From: Agrobacterium cucumeris
GTDB lineage: Bacteria > Pseudomonadota > Alphaproteobacteria > Rhizobiales > Rhizobiaceae
Assembly (NCBI RefSeq): GCF_030036535.1
Contig: NZ_CP080389.1
Location: 237,851-301,850 of the forward strand
DNA length: 64,000 nucleotides
Reading direction: 5' to 3'
Of this stretch, positions 41,692 through 54,769 are shown piece by piece. The notes beneath the pieces are model-generated. The model was given only the letters and a program-made list of their open reading frames with translations. It was not told the DNA's origin and ran no database searches. Every line of letters starts with the position of its first letter. Position 1 is the first letter of the stretch. The translations under genes and the position numbers were made by a program.

Positions 41692-43359
41692 TCAGAACGC
41701 CTCCCAATCTCCGGTAGCGATTGCTGCATTGCCCTGACTGGCAAATGTTTCACGCAGTTTCGACCGAAGGTCGCGCGCCGGAGAGGACGCCGCGTGCACA
41801 GTGGCTTTCCCAACAGGGCGAGGACGCGCGATCGAACCTCGGCCGGTGTTGAAATCGCTGAGCATACCCGTGATACGGCTGACCTCCTGGACCAGAGCAT
41901 GGCTTGCAGCAGTGGATTCTTCCACCATCGCGGCGTTCTGTTGCGTTCCCTGATCCATCGTGTTGACGGCAGTATTGATCTCCTGAAGAGCGGTCGCCTG
42001 CTCGCTGGATGCCCTGACGATCGCCCCGATGTGACGGTCGATCTCTTTCACTTCGCCGACGATCTCCGTCAGAGCTTCACCGGTCTGCCCGACCAGCGAT
42101 ACACCTTCCTTTACCTGCTCGCCGGAATTGTTGATCAGTTCCTTGATCTCCTTGGCGGCCTTGGCCGAGCGTTGCGCCAGTTCGCGGACTTCCTGGGCGA
42201 CAACGGCAAAGCCCTTACCCGCATCGCCGGCCCTTGCGGCTTCGACACCCGCATTGAGCGCCAGGAGGTTGGTCTGGAAGGCGATCTCGTCGATCACCCC
42301 GATGATGCTGGAGATTTCCCGCGATGAGCTGTCGATCGCACCCATGGCGGAGACGGCCTGCTGAACAATCTGGCCGGACTTTTCGGCGCCTGCACGGGCC
42401 TTGGCAACAAGGTGCCCAGCCTCTTCCGCGCGTCGGCTCGAATCCTTGACAGTTGTCGTGATCTCCTCCAGCGCCGCCGCCGTCTCCTCGATCGAGGCGG
42501 CCTGTTGTTCGGTGCGCTTGGCGAGATCATCGGCGGCAGAGCGGATCTCCTGCGCGCCGGCGCTGATCTGGGTCGCGGCACCATCAATATGCTGGATCGT
42601 CGTCGACAGCTGTTCCAGTGCATTGTTGAAGTCGTCTCGCAGCACATGATAGGCCGCCGGTAGATCGTCATCGATCCGGTAGCTCACATCCTTGGCGGCG
42701 ATTGCCGCCATCGCCTTGCCGAAACAGTTGCAGACGAGCTGACGCTCCGCGTCGATGGCTTCTGTCTGGGCCTTCTGCTTGGCGATCTCCGCCTCGTCGA
42801 TATAGACGGATATCGCCAGGTCCATGTCCAGCATCACGGCCTTCACGAGACCGGCGAGTGCTTTGCCGAACTCTGCCGGCTTCATCGTCTTCTTCGAGAA
42901 CATCCCGCCCTTCGGGAATATCTCTTCGACGGCGCTGTTGATCAGATGGTCGAGAATGATGGCGTATCCACCGATATACCATTGTGGCTCCAGGCCGATG
43001 CGGGCATGCACCGTGCCAATCGTCCGCACCTTGGCAACATAATCCTCGTTGAAGTTGCCGTCCGCGATATTGACCCAATGACCCATCTGTGCGCCCTTGG
43101 CGCGGGAAATGTGATCATCGGAGGAGAAGAAGCGGCTGGCTTCGGGGGTTATTCGCAGTTGCGTGTAGAATTTGTCGAGGCCATGTGGCAGTTCGCGTTC
43201 GACGAGGGCCTTCAGCGATCGGATCCCGGCGCGTCCTTCCTGATCGAGTTGCATGAAATCGAGACGACGCTCGACACTCTGACTTTTTGACTTTGAGACT
43301 ACAGCTGCAGCACTCTGGACGGAGTTGCTGCAGGTATGCATGGCGGACTGGCTCGACAT
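41692..43359 (-). CDS. Globin-coupled methyl-accepting chemotaxis protein (soluble)
   Basis: 555 residues; ATG 43359 has GAGGTCGGGA upstream, with ATG 43254 as an alternative. Residues about 35-190 form a protoglobin-type heme sensor: [20 protein letters not shown], then [20 protein letters not shown] with the proximal His near 118. There is no membrane helix, so it is cytoplasmic. The C-terminal half is a receptor signalling domain with [20 protein letters not shown] and [20 protein letters not shown]. HemAT-type proteins sense oxygen. A 36-nt composite element shared with two other promoters lies 107 nt upstream. Confidence 0.92.
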
Positions 43360-43743
43360 TCCCGACCTCGATTAAAATGGCTGAAACGGTGATCGGGCAG
43401 TGCCTCAATCACGTCGAAACCCGTCATCATGTCCGGCTTTGGCGCTCATCCGCCTTTCTCGACGACCCCAAATTTGGCCGACCTGGTTAATTTGGTGTTA
43501 ACCGAAACCCATAGGTGCTTGACCCTTCACCCTTAGCTGCGCCCATGGGACATCGCGTGCGAATTTCGGATATTATCGGCCGATACTGTCGGGATGAAAA
43601 ATGAGCGGTCATTCCGACGCGATCAATTGCTTGGCAGGCACACGACCGCCACCGCATGTGCTATGCTCGGCTCATCTACCTCCGCGGCCCGCTCTGGCAC
43701 TCCGGCCGTTGCGAGTGATCAGCGCTCACTTCCCCTGATGAGC
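43360..43743. other. Intergenic region upstream of the globin chemoreceptor
   Basis: 384 nt with no credible gene. It holds copy A of the composite regulatory element (43466-43501). Confidence 0.5.
43466..43501 (-). promoter_or_regulatory. Composite regulatory element, copy A
   Basis: On the minus strand: TTAACACCAAATTAA (43487-43501), then 10 nt, then the dyad CAAATTTG (43469-43476) extended by GGGG. The TTAA-N7-TTAA half is a perfect match to the CtrA consensus of alphaproteobacteria. Copies B and C have the same parts with the same 10-nt spacing. Located about 107 nt upstream of the chemoreceptor start. Confidence 0.65.
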
Positions 43744-45000
43744 CTATTTCTTGCTTAGGACAGCATAAAGCTGCTCCTGAGCGCTTTCGACGGGTATGCG
43801 ATCATCGTCGAAAAAGTTCGCAAGAACCGCGATAAATGCTTCGGACATCTGGGCGGGCATTGCCATGGATTGGGCGCTAACGTCGCTGTTCCTTGCGATC
43901 ATTTCCAATCCAAGACGACCACAGCGATCAAGGTTACTCGGATCCACGTCTGTCCGTACGGGAAGTGATCCCTTGAGCCCGCTGAAAGCAACCTGATTGA
44001 CCGGGTCCATGACCACGCGGGCAAAATCCCGCTGTGCTTTGATTGAAGCTTCGCGATTTGTAATCGGGAAGGCGAAGGCATCGACGACCATGAAGTAGGC
44101 GATTTCCGTACCCGGCACGAGGCTGCATTGGAAGTCCTTGTCCAAGACATAGCCTCTTGTCATCAGTTCTCCCTTGGCCCAATCACCCATGAACTGCATG
44201 CCGGCATCCCCGCTTCCCACCGCCGCAGCAGCATCCGCCCAGGTTTTGCCCACCCGCCGCTGCGCAGGCTCAGCATAGCTGGACAGTCGTCGCAACATCG
44301 AGAGCGCTTCAGCCATCCGGGGATCACGTATCATCGACGCGTCACCCCGGATTACGCGGGCATATCCTTGCGAACCCAGCTGCTGGTACATGATGTTATT
44401 GAATATGAGCGAGATCTCCCAGCGGCCGCCTCCCAGTGCGAGAGCAACATGCCCCTCCTGTTTTATCCTGTCGGCAGCGCCAATAATTTCCTCCCACGTC
44501 CTCGGCGCCGGAAGTCCCAGCCGATCAAAGAGGGCCTTGCTGGTCCACAGCCAGTTCTCGGCATGAATGTTCGTTGGTGCGAAGTAGATCTTCCCCTTGA
44601 AGCTTATCCGATCAACCACGGTCGCAGGTAGCACCTCACGCCAGCGGTCTGCCGCGGCAACCTCTTCCAGATCCAGGACGATTCCCATTTCCGGCAATTC
44701 CCGGGAACCTTCATTGGCGTTCCACTGCATGACCGCGGGTGCGTAGCCGCTGGCGACGCGATCACTCACTGTGCGTTGAACGGCAACCTTGTTTTCCATA
44801 GGAAGATCGATCCAACGGTTTCCCGCACGCGACCAAGCATCCCGAAACACGTCGAGCGCTCGTGCCTCACTCTTCGACACCCAATAATGGACGACATCGA
44901 TGGCGCCGCGCTCGTCTGCCGAAACAGGACTGGAGGGCAGGCCAAATACCAGTGGCGCAAGAACCAGACCAAGATGCTTTGCTTTGTTTGAAAAGGTCAT
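43744..45000 (-). CDS. Extracellular solute-binding protein (SBP_bac_1 type)
   Basis: 418 residues from ATG 45000 (GGAG 9 nt upstream). A signal peptide (LGLVLAPLVFGLPSSPVSA) precedes a binding protein of the sugar/polyamine type: YAPAVMQWNANEGSRELPEM, then FAPTNIHAENWLWTSKALFD and LPAPRTWEEIIGAADRIKQE. No permease or ATPase genes are near. It starts 25 nt after the GGDEF-EAL gene stop in the same operon, so it more likely serves as a periplasmic ligand detector for that protein than as an importer. Confidence 0.85.
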   Translation of the reverse strand: MTFSNKAKHLGLVLAPLVFGLPSSPVSADERGAIDVVHYWVSKSEARALDVFRDAWSRAGNRWIDLPMENKVAVQRTVSDRVASGYAPAVMQWNANEGSRELPEMGIVLDLEEVAAADRWREVLPATVVDRISFKGKIYFAPTNIHAENWLWTSKALFDRLGLPAPRTWEEIIGAADRIKQEGHVALALGGGRWEISLIFNNIMYQQLGSQGYARVIRGDASMIRDPRMAEALSMLRRLSSYAEPAQRRVGKTWADAAAAVGSGDAGMQFMGDWAKGELMTRGYVLDKDFQCSLVPGTEIAYFMVVDAFAFPITNREASIKAQRDFARVVMDPVNQVAFSGLKGSLPVRTDVDPSNLDRCGRLGLEMIARNSDVSAQSMAMPAQMSEAFIAVLANFFDDDRIPVESAQEQLYAVLSKK

Positions 45001-45025
45001 TTTGCATTTGCTCCGGAATGATGCG

Positions 45026-47116
45026 TCAATGTGCGCCCGCGGCGACCGGGTGGATTGTTTCGACAAACGGTACGAATTGGACCGCAGGAATGTGAGAGAC
45101 CGCAATCTCAGCGGGCGCGGGTTTGCCGAACAGGTAGCCTTGACCCAGCTCGCAGCCGATCTCGAGAAGGAAGCGGCTTTGGGCATCCGTCTCGATACCC
45201 TCGGCGACGCATCGTTTTCCGAGATTGTTGGAGAGGTCCACGATTGCGCGGATGATTTGTGCCGACCGCGGATCCGTTTCGATGCCGGAAACGAAGCTAC
45301 GATCGATTTTCAGTTCGTCGAAGGGGAAGTCCCGCAGATGGACCAAGGAAGCAAACCCAGTGCCAAAATCGTCGAGCGACACGGAAACGCCCTGTCGACG
45401 AAATCCCTCCACAGCGTTGAGAATCCGCTGGGAACCTCGGTTGAGGAATACATCTTCTGTGATCTCGACAGAAAAATCGCTCCATTCAAGGCGGTTTTCT
45501 CGGATTACCTTCGCAAAGATATCATAGCTTTCGTCCGTCAGGAGAAGCATCTCTGGCAGGTTGATGGCGACGGTGCCGGGCGCCAAGCCGGAACGCTTCC
45601 AGAAACGAAGGTCACGGCCAACAGTCGATATGACTGCCTTGGTCATACCCTTCATGAGTTGGGTGCCATCCATCAATGGCAGGAACCGACCGGGCGGCAG
45701 CAATCCGAAACATGGGTGCTGCCAGCGCACCAGCGCCTCAAACCCCACATGCTTGCCTGTGAGGAGGTCGACCTTTGGCTGATAGTGAACGACAAACTCC
45801 TGTCGGTCGGCTGCGGTGGCAAGTGCAGCCAAGAGCTGAGTGTCCTCGATCCGGTTGGCAAGTGCAGCTTCGTCGATGACGACGGCGGCACTACGTTCCC
45901 CCTTGGCGGCGTACAAAGCCACATCGGCCGCTTGCAGCAGACCGGTGCCATCATTTGCATGAAGAGGCGCGATAGCCCCACCAACGGATGCCGACGTCCG
46001 AAGAATTCGCCCCTCGAAGACGATATCTTCGGCAATGGCCTGCCTTATGCGCTCCGCAATAGAAATTAATAATGACGCATCCGTCACGCCAGGAAGAAGC
46101 ATCGCGAATTCGTCTCCCCCAAGACGCACTGCCGTATCACCTGCACGCACAACCTGCCGAAGCGCCTCTGCGACATGCCGGAGGATCGCATCTCCGGCAG
46201 TATGACCGAAGCTGTCGTTGATACCCTTGAAGTGATCGAGATCGACCAGGAGTATTGAAAAACCCGGATCCTTGCGTCCGAGTTCAGAGACAAGATGCGT
46301 AAGAACGGTGTTGAACTGGGAGCGATTGCCAAGCCCCGTCAAACCATCCGTATGCGCAAGATGCTCCAGTTTGGACTGGTAGTCTACGGTCCGGAAATGC
46401 TCATTGCGCAGTTTCTGCAGCAGGGGGCGGAACACCAGCGTGGCTGTGACGAGGACGGTCATTGCGATGAGCGCAAGAAGACACACGCCCGCAAGTTTCG
46501 CGTTGTAGACACTGAGCGTGCTTCGTTCGTGAGTACGCTGACTGAGATCTGAAAATCCGCGCATCAACATGCTGTCGGATGCTGCCGCAAAATCTATCGC
46601 TCCCCAGAACGAATATCGATCCCGCCTCTCTTGCGTGCCGGCCGTTGCGATTTGCTCAGCTCGCCCAAGGAATTCCACTACAGACTTGCCCAAATCCTCT
46701 CTTGCGCGCTCAAACGCCTCGTCCTGGGGGAGTAGACGTTCAAGGTAGTTCCCCTTGATTTCTGCATGCATGGTTTCCAACCGGCTCGCCACGGAGCGGA
46801 GGTCCGTAATTGCCTGGAGGATGTCGTCACGCATCGCATCGACAATATATTCGGGCAGCTTGAGGTCAGCCGAAGCGCGCATCAGAGCACGGGTCTGGTT
46901 GGCGAGTTGTTGAAACCGTATGAACTGATTGCTGGTCAGAAAGCTGATGTTCTGCTGCAGCGAGTGGCGGTCCAGCGCCACCAGCACCGTCGCGCACGTA
47001 GCCCCGATCAACAACATCATAATGATGACCGTGTTAAGGTATTGCCGGCTGATCGACCGAATATACCGACCCATGGACTTGTTGTGTTCGCTTATGAGCT
47101 GTCCAGCAAACGGCAT
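45026..47116 (-). CDS. Membrane GGDEF-EAL protein (c-di-GMP synthesis/breakdown)
   Basis: 696 residues from ATG 47116; ATG 47074 is an alternative. Two membrane helices (VIIMMLLIGATCATVLVAL and LAGVCLLALIAMTVLVTATLV) enclose a helical periplasmic domain of about 160 residues. The cyclase domain has GGDEF in RLGGDEFAML and an upstream RAGD inhibitory site. The EAL domain shows FEALVRWQHP, then DDFGTGFASLVHLRDFPFDE and AEGIETDAQ, so both halves look active. It starts 4 nt after a small upstream gene and is followed by a solute-binding protein gene, suggesting periplasmic ligand control as in Vibrio MbaA-NspS. Confidence 0.92.
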   Translation of the reverse strand: MPFAGQLISEHNKSMGRYIRSISRQYLNTVIIMMLLIGATCATVLVALDRHSLQQNISFLTSNQFIRFQQLANQTRALMRASADLKLPEYIVDAMRDDILQAITDLRSVASRLETMHAEIKGNYLERLLPQDEAFERAREDLGKSVVEFLGRAEQIATAGTQERRDRYSFWGAIDFAAASDSMLMRGFSDLSQRTHERSTLSVYNAKLAGVCLLALIAMTVLVTATLVFRPLLQKLRNEHFRTVDYQSKLEHLAHTDGLTGLGNRSQFNTVLTHLVSELGRKDPGFSILLVDLDHFKGINDSFGHTAGDAILRHVAEALRQVVRAGDTAVRLGGDEFAMLLPGVTDASLLISIAERIRQAIAEDIVFEGRILRTSASVGGAIAPLHANDGTGLLQAADVALYAAKGERSAAVVIDEAALANRIEDTQLLAALATAADRQEFVVHYQPKVDLLTGKHVGFEALVRWQHPCFGLLPPGRFLPLMDGTQLMKGMTKAVISTVGRDLRFWKRSGLAPGTVAINLPEMLLLTDESYDIFAKVIRENRLEWSDFSVEITEDVFLNRGSQRILNAVEGFRRQGVSVSLDDFGTGFASLVHLRDFPFDELKIDRSFVSGIETDPRSAQIIRAIVDLSNNLGKRCVAEGIETDAQSRFLLEIGCELGQGYLFGKPAPAEIAVSHIPAVQFVPFVETIHPVAAGAH

Positions 47117-47120
47117 CTCA

Positions 47121-47363
47121 TCAGCCCTCGCCGGCAAGTTCGGAGGCAGCACCCCGCCCGTTCGCGGCCCAGAGACCAAACTCCGTATGATCCAGCAATT
47201 GAATTCGAGGTGCGGCAGCGCCTTGCGATGCAGAAGCAGTTATCGCCATGCGGATCTCTTCGAGCTGTGCATAGACCTCCAGAATCTGGTCACGTACAGC
47301 CCGCAGCTCAGGGGATGAATGCTGTTGGAACCTGGTACTGGGAAAGGAAATGAGATTAGACAT
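47121..47363 (-). CDS. Small protein preceding the GGDEF-EAL gene
   Basis: 80 residues, ATG 47363 preceded by AGGGGAA. It begins SNLISFPSTRFQQHSSPELR and has a helical middle (AVRDQILEVYAQLEEIRMAI). No signal peptide or known domain. Its stop lies 4 nt before the start of the GGDEF-EAL gene, so the two are coupled. Function unknown; a cytoplasmic partner of the cyclase is one possibility. Confidence 0.6.
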   Translation of the reverse strand: MSNLISFPSTRFQQHSSPELRAVRDQILEVYAQLEEIRMAITASASQGAAAPRIQLLDHTEFGLWAANGRGAASELAGEG

Positions 47364-47846
47364 TTTGAGAGTATTCCCCTAAATCATGCAATTCGTTGGT
47401 CTTTCAGCGCCACCAGCATTGTGACATTCCATCTCCTTCCCGCACGCCTTCCAGTAGCGAATAGCCCTCACGGCATTTCGCAACGACGCTGTATTAGGAG
47501 AAATTGGGAACCGGCGGATCGTAAGGATGAGCTGACGCAGTAGTCTCGATGGCGGTGAAAGTTGATATCGACCAGGCACAGACCCCGGTCGTATCGAAAT
47601 CCGACATCCTGCCAGCCCCGGCGTTCATCCGCCTTTCCGATAAAGCCCAGAATTGGGCTCAATTGTAAATTTGTGATTAATCAAATATTGGCCAGATGAA
47701 GGCGAACAAATAGGTTGCGGATTTCGGATATTCGGCACGCCACAGGGATATCCGGGAAGAAAGCGACCGTCGATGGAAACGGCGCCTATCTAAACGAACC
47801 GGCCGGGCAAGGTTGGAAAACCCTTCAAGGTCTCCGCCCGCCTCTT
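47364..47846. other. Intergenic region between the c-di-GMP operon and the AraC gene
   Basis: 483 nt without a convincing gene. It holds copy B of the composite element (47645-47680). Confidence 0.45.
47645..47680 (-). promoter_or_regulatory. Composite regulatory element, copy B
   Basis: On the minus strand: TTAATCACAAATTTA (47666-47680), 10 nt, then CAATTCTG (47648-47655) within GCCCAATTCTGGGC. Flanking sequence (ATCCGCCTTTC on the plus strand) also resembles copy A. About 280 nt upstream of the small gene and GGDEF-EAL operon. Confidence 0.6.
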
Positions 47847-48842
47847 TCAATCGCGCTGGGCTTGGCTTTCCCGACCCCTGCGAATTGTCTCATTAGGCAA
47901 TTCCCCGAAAGCCGCTTTGTAGAGAGCTGAAAAATGGCCCATGTGGACGAACCCGTAGCGTCTGGCCACAGCTGAGACCGTCAAGTCTCCCGAAACGAGA
48001 AAATCGCGCCGGACGGCTTCCAACCGCAATTGCCGCCAGTAGTCGGATGGGGTCGTGTCCTTGAACTGCTGGAATGCTGATTGCAGAGCGCGGATGCTCA
48101 CACCAGCGGCTATTGCGAGGTCCGCCATCTCTAGCGACGTATCAAGGTGAGCCATCATGAAGTCTATCGCTCGCTTCACGTGGCGAGGCACAGCGGCCGC
48201 CGCCGGGTCTTTGAGCGCGCTGGAATAGGTGTGTGGCAACTGTTCCAGCATGCATACGAGCATTGACCGGAACAGAAGCTCCGTTGACCGGAGTGGCAAG
48301 GCTTCTTCTTTGTCGTTTGCAAACGTCGACCACAGCAAGCCTCCCAAGGACATGAGATATCCGTGCAAGGTCGTGTTGGCTTCGATCTCAATCGCGAAAT
48401 CCACATCCCCCGTCACAGGCCGATCGAGTAACAAGCTCAGTTCCCGTTTGAGAGCGTTCTGGCTGAAGGTGACGCCGATATGCGAGCGTCCCGCATGCTT
48501 ACGAACGAACTCCGTCTGCTGCAGTTTGCCGACCAGAATACTATCTGACTTGGAAACGAGATCGAGGCCGCGACAACGAACTTCCATTGCCCCCGCTATT
48601 GGAAGGTACAGAGCACACGAGTCGGGAGGGGCATCGAAACTTGCCTCGACGCCGATGCCACAATCCGTCCGCCAGATGTCAAAACTGCCGGCGGAAAACT
48701 GCAGGTTCTCCATGCTGACCTTTCCGGCCTTGGAGAGAGGGCGGAGTTTTACGCATTCACGGCTCTGAGGAAGCTGTTCCTGAAGTTCGTCGATGTCCAT
48801 TTGCACGAACTTGAAACGAGACGTTTGAGGAGCCCGCACCAT
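47847..48842 (-). CDS. AraC-family regulator
   Basis: 331 residues; ATG 48842, or ATG 48800 giving 317. The N-terminal half is the AraC-binding-like beta domain (SFDAPPDSCALYLPIAGAME, then RKHAGRSHIGVTFSQNALKR). The C-terminal domain carries two helix-turn-helices: HLDTSLEMADLAIAAGVSIR, then LTVSAVARRYGFVHMGHFSA followed by YKAAFGELP. Likely local activator of the c-di-GMP/pilus block. Copy C of the composite element lies about 230 nt upstream. Confidence 0.88.
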   Translation of the reverse strand: MVRAPQTSRFKFVQMDIDELQEQLPQSRECVKLRPLSKAGKVSMENLQFSAGSFDIWRTDCGIGVEASFDAPPDSCALYLPIAGAMEVRCRGLDLVSKSDSILVGKLQQTEFVRKHAGRSHIGVTFSQNALKRELSLLLDRPVTGDVDFAIEIEANTTLHGYLMSLGGLLWSTFANDKEEALPLRSTELLFRSMLVCMLEQLPHTYSSALKDPAAAAVPRHVKRAIDFMMAHLDTSLEMADLAIAAGVSIRALQSAFQQFKDTTPSDYWRQLRLEAVRRDFLVSGDLTVSAVARRYGFVHMGHFSALYKAAFGELPNETIRRGRESQAQRD

Positions 48843-49195
48843 CAGTGCCCCCGGATGCGTGCGGATCGGGCAGGGAGCTTTTGGGTAAGTTCCGTACCGC
48901 TCCGCCCAGATTCTCGCCAGATTTCAGCCGAGGGATACCGAAGAATGGGAAGTTGCCCGTGGGCAACAGTATCCGCACAAGTCGGCTTTGCAAATTCGAT
49001 GAACATTGTGGTACGTACCTCAGAATACTCAAAATGCGGTGTCGTGGAGGCGAGAGCTCGTCTCTTCCTACCCCAGATTTGGGTCGATTCGCTAATTTTC
49101 TGCTAAAATGAGGACGGGCTGCCGAGCAGATGTTGCCGAAACCACGATGGCTGCGCCGTTATATTTCACGTGAAGTTAGAGCAAAGACTCCTGCA
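48843..49195. other. Intergenic region upstream of the AraC gene
   Basis: 353 nt between two genes on the minus strand; no gene seen. Contains copy C of the composite element (49071-49106). Confidence 0.5.
49071..49106 (-). promoter_or_regulatory. Composite regulatory element, copy C
   Basis: On the minus strand: TTAGCAGAAAATTAG (49092-49106), 10 nt, then CAAATCTG (49074-49081) flanked by CCC and GGGG. Same plan and spacing as copies A and B. Confidence 0.6.
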
Positions 49196-49912
49196 TCATA
49201 TTAGATGCCGGCGAATTGCTTCGGCGATCGCATGAGCGCGGTTAGCCGCGCCCAGCTTCTTCGCCGCGCTCTTCAGGTAGCTGTTGACAGTTTCGGTTCG
49301 ATACTCGGAAACCCCGGAAATTTCCTCGCTGGTCAAGCCAGTGCTGGCGAGCTGAAGGCAACGCAGCTCACCATCTGTAAGCCGCAAGGCATCAGCGGCA
49401 AAACGATCCATCAAAGGCTTTGAAATTGTCCGGTGCAACGGCTCCGCGATGAATACCAGGAACTCTCGTTCGCCTGGGGTAAACGCCCGCTCCGTCGTGA
49501 AGGAAACACCGCCATAAACAACACCACCCCTGGCGACGGGAATTTGCAGGCGCTTGCCGATCTCGTAAGAGCGATGCAGATAGGAAAGACGTTGGGCCGG
49601 CGGCGAAAGGTCAAATGCCTCTTCCTCTGTCATCGGTGTCGCCTGTGCAGTCGACCGAACAAGCAGGGGATCGGAGCGGTTCCACTGTTCCGAAAAGTAT
49701 GTTTCGACATAGGCTGGCGGCATGTCGCTCTCGATCGAGCGCCCTCGCCCGATGTGGTATCCGTTCAGGTCAAGTCCACCGAAGGCGACGTGCCGGAACC
49801 CGACAGCCTTTCTCACATGTTCAAGCAGCTCGTTATCGCGCAGTTGTCGCTGAACTGGAACTTCCGAAAGGTTCTTGAAGCGGTCAAACCCCTCCCCGTG
49901 TGTATGCCCCAT
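49196..49912 (-). CDS. LuxR-type regulator with autoinducer-binding-like domain
   Basis: 238 residues from ATG 49912. The N-terminal domain has the autoinducer-binding pattern (YVETYFSEQWNRSDPLLVRS, then GGVVYGGVSFTTERAFTPGE). The C-terminal HTH reads LRLTDGELRCLQLASTGLTS, then EEISGVSEYRTETVNSYLKS and AANRAHAIAEAI. No luxI-type gene is adjacent, so it may be a solo that listens to the TraI product or another signal. It ends the minus-strand series and diverges from the GGDEF gene by 147 nt. Confidence 0.82.
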   Translation of the reverse strand: MGHTHGEGFDRFKNLSEVPVQRQLRDNELLEHVRKAVGFRHVAFGGLDLNGYHIGRGRSIESDMPPAYVETYFSEQWNRSDPLLVRSTAQATPMTEEEAFDLSPPAQRLSYLHRSYEIGKRLQIPVARGGVVYGGVSFTTERAFTPGEREFLVFIAEPLHRTISKPLMDRFAADALRLTDGELRCLQLASTGLTSEEISGVSEYRTETVNSYLKSAAKKLGAANRAHAIAEAIRRHLI

Positions 49913-50059
49913 CACTGATCTCTCGCCGAATCCTGAAAACCACATTTTTGCGCTGAATGCTTAACGCAATATCAATCGTCAACAGGCAACTTCTGGCTGA
50001 TATTTCAGCTTCGCTCTCAGATTGTCAGCCGGGTCTCGGCGATTACACAGGGTATATGC

Positions 50060-52060: not shown

Positions 52061-53148
<1,088 letters not shown>

Positions 53149-53467: not shown

Positions 53468-54769
53468 TTAGTTTATGCGGTAAGCCGACGGAAAGATGAT
53501 GTCCTGGTCGACGAGGACGTTGAACTTATAGCCGGGGCGTATCTGGATCGTCGGCTGTACATTCAGGTTCTTCGAGATTGTCTGCTCGGCGACGCGACCG
53601 AAGCTTTCAGCAAAATTCCGTCTGGCGGCATCGGACGCCGTATCCTGCGTCGCAAGCGTCGAACTCTCCGGCATGGACATGTCGATCCCGGTTCCGATCA
53701 GCGCGACGAGTGCTGCCGAACCCCAGGTGCGCCAGAGATGTCGATCGACTTTATCCTTGAACCCGCCATATCCCTCGGCATCCGTGCCCGCCATGCCGCC
53801 GATCTGCAGGGTCGATCCGTTCGGAAAGATGAGGTCGGTCCAGACGACGAGTACGCGCTCCTGGCCAAACGACACCTTGGAATCGTAGCGGCCGAATAGT
53901 TTGGACCCCTGCGGGATCAGGAGCCGATAGCCGGTGGCGCTGTCAAAAACGTTCTGGCTGACCTGAGCGGTGATTCTGCCCGGAAGATCGGAGTTGAGCC
54001 CGGTGATCAACGTGGCCGGAATAACCGAGCCGCGCTTCAGCTCATAGGGCGAGATCTGCGGTACGACCCGGTTCGGCAGATAGCCGAGATCCTTGATGTC
54101 CTGATTGAAAAAATCCTGCTTCGAAGTCTGGGTGTTCGGATCGACGTTCTGTCCCATCAGCCCTGATTTGACAGCGGAGGCGTAGAGGTCGGAGGCATTG
54201 TTGGCTGTCGCAGTTGTCGTCTGCCGGCCCGTGTCTCTGGAATTGTTGGCGACTTTTTCGACATCGGAAATATCCACCTTCAATGGCGAGTCCAAAGCCG
54301 TTGCCCGCGCCTGAAGGCGGGCCATACGCTGGCGCTGCGCCTCGCGGATATATTGTTCGTCCTGCTCCCGTTTCAGGCGGGCTTTCCATTCCTCTTCGGA
54401 TTCGAGCCTTGGCCGCCGTTCTTGCCTTTCCGCGGACTGGCGGTCGACAACAGATGTTTCCTTCTCGACCTTCTGTTCGACGGCGGGCGTTGGCTGAAAC
54501 GCTTCGCGCTCAACCGGCTCGCCGATGATGCCGTCGGTAACGCCGCGTTTGAGTTGGTCTCCAAAATTGGTTGCGGGAGCATTCGAGGCGCTCTCGATAT
54601 CATTGTTCCGATTGAATGCCAGCCCGCGCCACGACAGCCCGACCACGACCACCCCGACGAACAACGCGATGATGATGATGGCGATGATGATCGGCAGCCG
54701 ATTGAGACGGCGCATACCCTTCTGATCGTCGGCTTGGTTGGAGGCGCCAAGCTGGAGAGACTGGACCAT
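53468..54769 (-). CDS. trbI: TrbI, VirB10-like outer/inner membrane bridge
   Basis: 433 residues. A membrane helix (LPIIIAIIIIALFVGVVVVGL) follows a short cytoplasmic tail. A proline/charged linker precedes the VirB10/TrbI beta-barrel domain: YELKRGSVIPATLITGLNSD, then GRITAQVSQNVFDSATGYRL and LIPQGSKLFGRYDSKVSFGQ. Spans the periplasm in the core complex. Last gene of traI-trb, 12 nt after trbH. Confidence 0.94.
   Translation of the reverse strand: MVQSLQLGASNQADDQKGMRRLNRLPIIIAIIIIALFVGVVVVGLSWRGLAFNRNNDIESASNAPATNFGDQLKRGVTDGIIGEPVEREAFQPTPAVEQKVEKETSVVDRQSAERQERRPRLESEEEWKARLKREQDEQYIREAQRQRMARLQARATALDSPLKVDISDVEKVANNSRDTGRQTTTATANNASDLYASAVKSGLMGQNVDPNTQTSKQDFFNQDIKDLGYLPNRVVPQISPYELKRGSVIPATLITGLNSDLPGRITAQVSQNVFDSATGYRLLIPQGSKLFGRYDSKVSFGQERVLVVWTDLIFPNGSTLQIGGMAGTDAEGYGGFKDKVDRHLWRTWGSAALVALIGTGIDMSMPESSTLATQDTASDAARRNFAESFGRVAEQTISKNLNVQPTIQIRPGYKFNVLVDQDIIFPSAYRIN

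Follow-up and report, generated by a model that had tools for sequence, protein, structure and literature searches.

A candidate promoter and leader RNA module upstream of chemoreceptor and cyclic di-GMP genes of Rhizobiaceae

Rhizobia and agrobacteria carry many plasmid-borne chemoreceptors, and to our knowledge little is known about how these are wired. CtrA controls motility genes in alphaproteobacteria, and VisNR-Rem comprises LuxR-type regulators of chemotaxis genes. The S. meliloti CtrA motif is given as TAA-N7-TTAAC in the available part of PMC3616915, and the VisNR-Rem regulon is named in that of PMC7617929. The operator of XylS reads TGCA-N6-GGNTA-N6-TGCA-N6-GGNTA in the accessible text of PMC4514859 and PMC5481539. 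For R. rhizogenes C16/80 and A. vitis T60/94, transcription starts specific to certain conditions are reported upstream of chemoreceptor genes (PMC10469942). At the RNA level, the serC, speF and ybhL elements (RF00517, RF00518 and RF00520), as outlined in the available part of PMC1273637, are structured 5' leaders of alphaproteobacteria, with conserved hairpins that begin near a putative start and lie upstream of orthologous genes. Here, we describe a 64,000-nucleotide (nt) stretch of Agrobacterium cucumeris DNA (contig NZ_CP080389.1, positions 237,851 to 301,850; hereafter, the window), in which a composite element precedes a protoglobin chemoreceptor gene (copy s1) and a GGDEF-EAL operon (copy s2), with a third, doubtful copy (s3) upstream of an AraC-family gene.

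On balance, we consider it likely that the s1/s2-type element is a transcription-plus-leader module. Its first half is a 15-bp inverted repeat, TTNA-N7-TNAA, at a near-fixed distance from the leader, and its second half is probably the first of three RNA hairpins (H0, H1 and H2). The box, the spacing, the pairing, direct repeats found upstream and the classes of genes headed are supported by sequence comparison; AraC-type activation, a transcription start at the foot of H0 and a function of the leader are what we infer. The two copies are laid out as follows (leader scores are from covariance model R1, whose 20 sequences include both s1 and s2).

43558..43572, minus strand: s1 distal direct repeat TATCC-N6-CGCA, 9 of 9 fixed letters
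43538..43552, minus strand: s1 proximal direct repeat, 8 of 9 letters, 20 bp from the distal one
43487..43501, minus strand: s1 inverted repeat TTAA-N7-TTAA (first half)
43466..43479, minus strand: s1 hairpin H0 (second half), inner pairs only, a weak copy
43441..43454, minus strand: s1 hairpin H1, GGCG-GAUGAG-CGCC
43421..43435, minus strand: s1 H2 region with AUGAU loop, no stable stem when folded alone
43416..43484, minus strand: s1 leader, 58.0 bits
41692..43359, minus strand: protoglobin chemoreceptor (Protoglobin and MCPsignal domains), downstream of s1
47736..47750, minus strand: s2 distal direct repeat, 7 of 9 letters
47716..47730, minus strand: s2 proximal direct repeat, 9 of 9 letters
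47666..47680, minus strand: s2 box TTAA-N7-TTTA (first half), 5 of 6 letters
47645..47658, minus strand: s2 hairpin H0, GCCCA-AUUC-UGGGC (second half)
47620..47633, minus strand: s2 hairpin H1, GGCG-GAUGAA-CGCC
47601..47615, minus strand: s2 hairpin H2, CUGGC-AGGAU-GUCGG
47596..47663, minus strand: s2 leader, 61.5 bits
47121..47363, minus strand: small open reading frame (ORF) MSNLISFPS..., the first after s2, read by eye
45026..47179, minus strand: GGDEF-EAL protein, true start probably within the listed ORF

The original prediction had placed one layout at three minus-strand sites, with exactly 10 nt between its halves. This was borne out: the 36-nt sites are present at 43466-43501 (s1), 47645-47680 (s2) and 49071-49106 (s3), with 0, 1+2 and 2+1 mismatches, respectively, to TTAA-N7-TTAA-N10-CAAATTTG, and the spacing is kept in relatives as well. 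The layout also stood up to scans of the genome and of randomized sequence. With up to four mismatches in total, it matches the window 5 times, against a mean of 0.85 (maximum 3) in 40 first-order Markov sequences, the two matches beyond s1-s3 being at 49943 (start of the LuxR gene at 49196-49945) and 54537; a loose setting gives 13 matches against a Markov mean of 4.05 (maximum 9). A pattern derived from s1, s2 and s3 themselves, and hence post hoc, was applied to the 5.7-Mb genome with up to three mismatches and found exactly these three sites (reversed control, none). Across 39 genomes of the genus, it found the same three sites in a same-species genome plus one site with three mismatches, and its reversed control matched once. 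By itself, TTAA-N7-TTAAC has 43 strand matches in the genome versus 26 for the reversed control. The composite is therefore genuine and specific, whereas the TTAA half by itself is unremarkable.

Relatives were found by DNA searches. The s1 region matched seven plasmid records. In six of these, from Rhizobium, the element precedes globin sensors; in the seventh, Agrobacterium pLN1, it precedes a TadG-like gene. The s2 region found the element before the EAL operon of Rhizobium sp. SL42, and a CIAT894 query brought in BT03 as well as a third copy in SL42, upstream of a chemoreceptor gene. Twenty instances align as three consecutive hairpins, of which H0 is the noted dyad; this alignment (A1), made with MAFFT with its structure set by hand, is the basis of R1. 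Covariance modeling then identified instances beyond those used so far: a second pLN1 copy, before the pLN1 globin gene, and further copies preceding chemoreceptors, PAS chemoreceptors, a GAF-PAS-GGDEF protein, EAL genes and molybdopterin oxidoreductase genes.

For comparison, 39 leaders were chosen by hand, namely the 20 of A1 and 19 others. The set keeps one low-scoring leader (L081:8794) and omits near-identical copies, L013:11974 (12 nt of upstream sequence only), L088:15623 (low score) and the doubtful L043, L050 and L052. The genes that follow encode globin chemoreceptors (10), other chemoreceptors (11), CheW (1), molybdopterin-kinase-HD-GYP operons (9), GGDEF-EAL proteins (4) and a GAF-PAS-GGDEF protein (1), with three others (a TadG-like gene, a small ORF, and no ORF of at least 80 amino acids). 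These assignments come from annotation, tblastn and Pfam, in some cases from reading the ORF start, and for several operons from the first gene only. As is characteristic of leader RNAs, the leaders keep the same orientation before genes of linked function.

The covariance models contain no upstream sequence. Nonetheless, TTNA-N7-TNAA occurs with at least 5 of its 6 letters before all 39 leaders, 25 of them having 6/6; shuffles gave means of 5.7 at 5/6 and 0.5 at 6/6, and windows 25 nt upstream reached 5 letters in 1/39. When the register was restricted to five positions, the box was present before all 19 leaders outside R1 (11 at 6/6), whereas shuffles gave 1.35 on average and never more than 5. 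In 32/39 leaders, the register is 17 or 18 nt ahead of the model start; for s2, the scan chose a neighboring register tied with the noted one. The letters at N agree across the repeat (TTTA with TAAA, TTCA with TGAA, TTAA with TTAA) in 18 of 39 leaders, against 11.8 expected (p 0.02), a weak tendency.

These findings bear on the proposal, made in the original prediction, that the first half is a CtrA site, the second half then being a separate dyad. In its favor are the S. meliloti motif cited above, the exact match of s1 to TTAA-N7-TTAAC, the role of CtrA in motility, and the general likeness of two AT half-sites 7 bp apart. However, the TAA-N7-TTAAC site present in s1 is lost in many relatives, in which the half-sites become TTCA/TGAA or TTTA/TAAA and are tied to a leader; TTAA-N7-TTAAC is common in the genome, unlike the composite; and the letter N fits an inverted repeat somewhat above chance. 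Identity of the box with the CtrA motif is not supported, and we regard a CtrA box beside a second dyad as improbable.

Turning to the putative leader RNA, H1 varies in sequence with its arms complementary, and H2 usually has a C-AUGAN-G loop. In A1, 82.1% of cells pair versus 77.1% after shuffling, with 16 versus 5.8 two-sided changes. For 43 distinct rows, 83.9% of cells pair (shuffled, 77.5 +/- 0.8; slid controls, 34-50%) and two-sided changes number 51 (shuffled, 20.7 +/- 3.7), figures that are inflated because this alignment was fitted to the model. Pairing is thus kept through compensatory change, a mark of leader RNAs, with single-sequence folds weaker. Folded piecewise, H0 is clearly better than shuffles (29 matches, mean z -4.0), and s2 also folds into three hairpins when cut short. 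Counts of G-U versus A-C cells in the 39 leaders are 21 versus 8 in H0, 19 versus 5 in H2 and 15 versus 10 in H1 (not significant); the excess in H0 and H2 is expected if RNA of the coding strand is what folds. In two relatives, L076 and L115, the CCC/GGG of H0 is lost and other arms pair (-0.9 kcal/mol, which is weak, and -2.6 kcal/mol, respectively).

Since pairing survives sequence change and a hairpin persists without CCC/GGG in two relatives, the dyad is best read as a leader hairpin. Each of these lines is modest alone, because the sequences are related; together they favor RNA. The dyad, which had been noted as unrecognized, is indeed present, but as half of a protein site it gives way to the first of three hairpins. 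Likewise, of the supposed two-protein or extended protein site, the recurrence and the spacing hold, and the reading shifts to a promoter box followed by folded RNA.

The main rival is the reading with which we began. The CCC...GGG dyad was first taken for a LuxR or ExpR-like box because LuxR genes adjoin it, including one in the window.

49196..49945, minus strand: LuxR solo (Autoind_bind and GerE domains), best NCBIfam match VisR

CCC...GGG would then be the site of this protein, beside the TTAA box of a second factor, with H1 and H2 incidental. LuxR relatives of 66-67% identity do lie directly before a leader and globin gene in BT03, N324, CIAT894, CB3171, NXC24 and CB3060 (Rhizobium plasmid records), and relatives of 53-54% identity lie before leaders at loci L020, L022, L023 and L024. 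Five further loci were fetched with relatives of about 42-43%, four of them among chemoreceptor and HD-GYP genes, some with CheW or hemA, with the dyad or leader present; the fifth, L027, has neither such genes nor dyad or leader. By counting, the two dyads are also about two helical turns apart. A LuxR-type operator, however, calls for a constant CCC...GGG and a linked LuxR gene. The dyad becomes other hairpins in two relatives, of the 12 accepted loci that the model found, only 5 have a LuxR gene within the flank fetched, and none is found in the fetched stretches of SL42 and pLN1. Within H0, C-to-U changes that keep U-G pairs outnumber the reverse A-C, 21 to 8, and H1 and H2 covary. It was this covariation, together with the bias of U-G to one strand and the exchange of H0 for other hairpins, that displaced the operator reading, which we now hold to be unlikely.

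The LuxR protein invites comparison with VisNR-Rem, as VisR is its best match among NCBIfam models. The likeness is one of sequence, with a hypothetical link between LuxR and H0, and the score is far below the cut-off (NF047403, 50.2 bits versus 300), so that the protein is not assigned to VisR. As a separate observation, many relatives of this LuxR on Rhizobiaceae plasmids adjoin chemoreceptor, CheW, hemA or molybdopterin-kinase-HD-GYP genes.

Upstream of the box, the module that we favor includes tandem repeats in part of the set. In 16 of 38 leaders (the 39 minus L081:8794; s1 and s2 included), two copies of TATCC-N6-CGCA are present, exactly 20 bp apart in 15 and 19 bp apart in one, when one copy is required to match at least 8 of 9 letters and the other at least 6; shuffled sequences gave a mean of 0.085 (maximum 2). 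The proximal repeat lies near -67 or, one helical turn nearer, near -58. Box-N6-box repeats with a period of about 20-21 bp and a linked regulator gene are features of AraC/XylS promoters, and both were found here. To judge from the parts of the XylS sources cited above, the likeness to XylS/Pm-type operators lies in two 15-bp direct repeats of two boxes 6 bp apart, here TGCG-N6-GGATA twice on the opposite strand; compared by sequence alone, the present repeats differ in having a 20-bp rather than 21-bp period, in being reversed and in lying further from the presumed start. As in those systems, an AraC_binding_2 protein is encoded near the repeats.

47847..48842, minus strand: AraC-family protein (HTH_18 and AraC_binding_2 domains), candidate reader of the tandem repeats

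Within the flanks fetched, 10 of the 12 replicons that have a good repeat also encode an AraC relative (all but L010 and L091), versus 1 of 15 loci lacking such a repeat (L026). Seven loci had supplied AraC query proteins; when such loci are left out, the linkage is 4/6 versus 0/14 (p 0.003), with flank lengths that differ between loci. The backward, start-distant placing of the repeats recalls class I sites of MarA and SoxS, which are also oriented backward and further from the start. Leaders of molybdopterin-kinase and PAS-chemoreceptor genes lack tandem repeats, so their activation must differ.

The third copy departs from this scheme.

49092..49106, minus strand: s3 TTAG-N7-TTAG, degenerate first half
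49070..49084, minus strand: s3 H0-like ACCCAAAUCUGGGGU
49047..49064, minus strand: s3 H1-like hairpin GAGACGAGCUCUCGCCUC, H2 not seen

It retains the TTAG-N7-TTAG repeat, the H0-like and H1-like hairpins and the spacing, and lacks H2 and tandem repeats. In its own orientation, s3 is not among the matches listed by either covariance model; the opposite strand gives 19.1 bits with R1, which is noise level. The copy lies directly after the LuxR gene, where relatives carry a leader and globin gene, and it may be a decayed leader; we treat it as a degenerate or doubtful member. Of the regulon that had been proposed for this block, the part that stands is that the element marks a chemotaxis and cyclic di-GMP gene group; the membership of s3 is in doubt for the reasons just given. 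Two PAS-chemoreceptor leaders, L081 8794-8849 and L088 15623-15695 (both minus strand), resemble s3 in that the box and H0 are kept and other sequence or hairpins seemingly replace H2.

We propose the following mechanism. The upstream repeats (TGCG-N6-GGATA twice, 20-bp period) would be the target of an activator of AraC/XylS type, for which the protein of 47847-48842 is a candidate. The box would lie around the -10/start region of the promoter and be read by a putative dimeric factor, and transcription would start near the foot of H0, as the kept spacing suggests; a fixed coupling of the promoter box to the 5' end of the leader would account for the constant 10 nt. The message would begin with H0, H1 and H2, a pairing supported by comparison, the last usually with an AUGAN loop. 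The leader is probably regulatory: it may tune the stability or translation of chemoreceptor and cyclic di-GMP mRNAs, or bind a common RNA-binding protein or small RNA. Such a shared module would co-regulate sensory genes and would show how receptors, CheW and cyclic di-GMP enzymes are co-expressed; it provides a searchable signature for this gene group, a testable pair (AraC-type protein and tandem boxes) and a testable RNA. More speculatively, the leaders could form a new regulatory RNA family that places Rhizobiaceae chemoreceptors, CheW and cyclic di-GMP enzymes, mostly on plasmid-sized contigs, under one RNA-level control on top of AraC-type control, the AUGAN loop of H2 being read by a protein, small RNA or ligand; we put this forward tentatively.

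Several points weigh against the proposed module. In whole-leader minimum-energy folds, the full set of three hairpins appears in only about 6 of 21 sequences, s1 not among them. The H2 of s1 is also unfolded alone, and piecewise folds of H1 and H2 improve little on shuffles (mean z -1.2 and -1.3). The structure of A1 was set by hand, and the later alignments (A2-A4), having been fitted to models, are biased in their favor. The box and repeat patterns are post hoc, drawn from sequences already inspected, and the judging of weak matches was not blind to the box. As the sequences are related, neither the shuffle counts nor the binomial p-values amount to independent tests, and the counts for the Fisher tests of AraC linkage were entered by hand. 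The AraC protein of the window shares only 30-33% identity with its CIAT894 and N324 counterparts, and the AraC part covers only some lineages, because leaders of molybdopterin-kinase and PAS-chemoreceptor genes lack the tandem repeats. Finally, s3 fits poorly.

Like the serC, speF and ybhL leaders (as outlined in the available part of PMC1273637), the present one consists of conserved hairpins beginning near a putative start. It differs from them in heading several kinds of genes linked by chemotaxis and cyclic di-GMP and in that Rfam 15 gave no match, either for window positions 43000-49600 (E up to 1) or for eight loci at the gathering score. No paper was found whose title or abstract start describes such a leader RNA or this LuxR group. 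The AUG in H2 was considered as the start of a leader peptide, an idea dropped because the frame is not kept, s1 having a one-base gap relative to its relatives in the alignment.

Genome screens, which score only the best first-look candidates and so miss weak copies, indicated how far the leader is distributed. Most leaders are on plasmid records or plasmid-sized contigs, one (L072/L083) being on a 4.0-Mb contig. With the first model and E up to 0.02, 9 of 39 genomes of the window's own genus had matches, four of these only by rows judged chance; with the second model, the count in the genus to which G066 belongs was 19 of 148. A screen of 397 genomes across the order gave 11 rows, 4 of them known and 7 judged chance, and no copy beyond Rhizobiaceae was accepted. 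One 19-row model listing held the window's own 2 leaders, 5 accepted (L041, L042, L044, L046 and L057), 3 doubtful (L043, L050 and L052) and 9 chance matches inside ORFs. Mechanical ORFs overlap L042, L057 and some other accepted leaders, which were accepted on the downstream gene and box. In the own-genus listing (13 rows), L062-L065 were judged chance; in a second 13-row listing, none was. Rows L070, L071 and L078, and L105, L106, L108, L112 and L116 (of 27 rows from the genus of G066), were taken as listed. At L097 and L098, long ORFs overlap the region of the match. Among rejected candidates, the own-genome matches next below s1 and s2 (L033, 22.2 bits; L034, 19.4 bits) are within coding sequence, and a 28-nt Caballeronia match of s3 (E 0.03) and Azospirillum matches, several listed under flhA, look like chance.

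Leaders with the scores of s1 and s2 co-occur with a further EAL leader in two genera: G005:C11 (L058, L066 and L068), G438 (L070, L078 and L079) and G914 (L108, L112 and L116). The block therefore appears to travel, and its presence in a second genus points to recent horizontal transfer. The LuxR protein of the window has a 100% match on the GBBC3284 contig (Rhizobium rhizogenes). The similarity of s1 and s2 also exceeds the 36-nt site (79.6% over 49 nt downstream and 94.1% over 17 nt upstream), the shared pieces being spread over about 140-160 nt; s3 has only the core in common with them, and the region upstream of the AraC gene lacks this sharing. The shared pieces, and a contig common to two genera, would suit a feature with no function of its own, arisen by recent duplication of a single upstream region or as a small mobile element. 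This we find very unlikely, as instances diverged beyond blastn joining still keep the box, spacing and pairing, and as instances precede different genes.

Some further observations concern the element elsewhere. In a plasmid region of R. brockwellii (L029 9034, 15352 and 15471), the dyad precedes three units, a molybdopterin-kinase operon, a chemoreceptor and CheW, and in a region of A. pusense (L028 807 and 10400), it precedes two. A leader scoring 32.9 bits, with GUUCC/GGAAC and CGGACAUGAUGUCCG hairpins and no TTNA-N7-TNAA box, is found at a Sel1-repeat-like gene, presumably exoR from its appearance (L043 1501-1571 and L092 10010-10080, plus strand); it could be a distant relative or chance.

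The window is the end of contig C3 (301,850 bases) in a five-contig genome. The genes of the block encode the protoglobin chemoreceptor, a solute-binding protein, the GGDEF-EAL protein, the AraC-family protein and the LuxR solo; small ORFs precede EAL genes also in SL42 and L068. A second LuxR protein is encoded at 52061-52774 (minus strand), with TraR as its best NCBIfam match (141.5 bits; cut-off 250), and adjoins a TrbI conjugation gene at 53468-54769.

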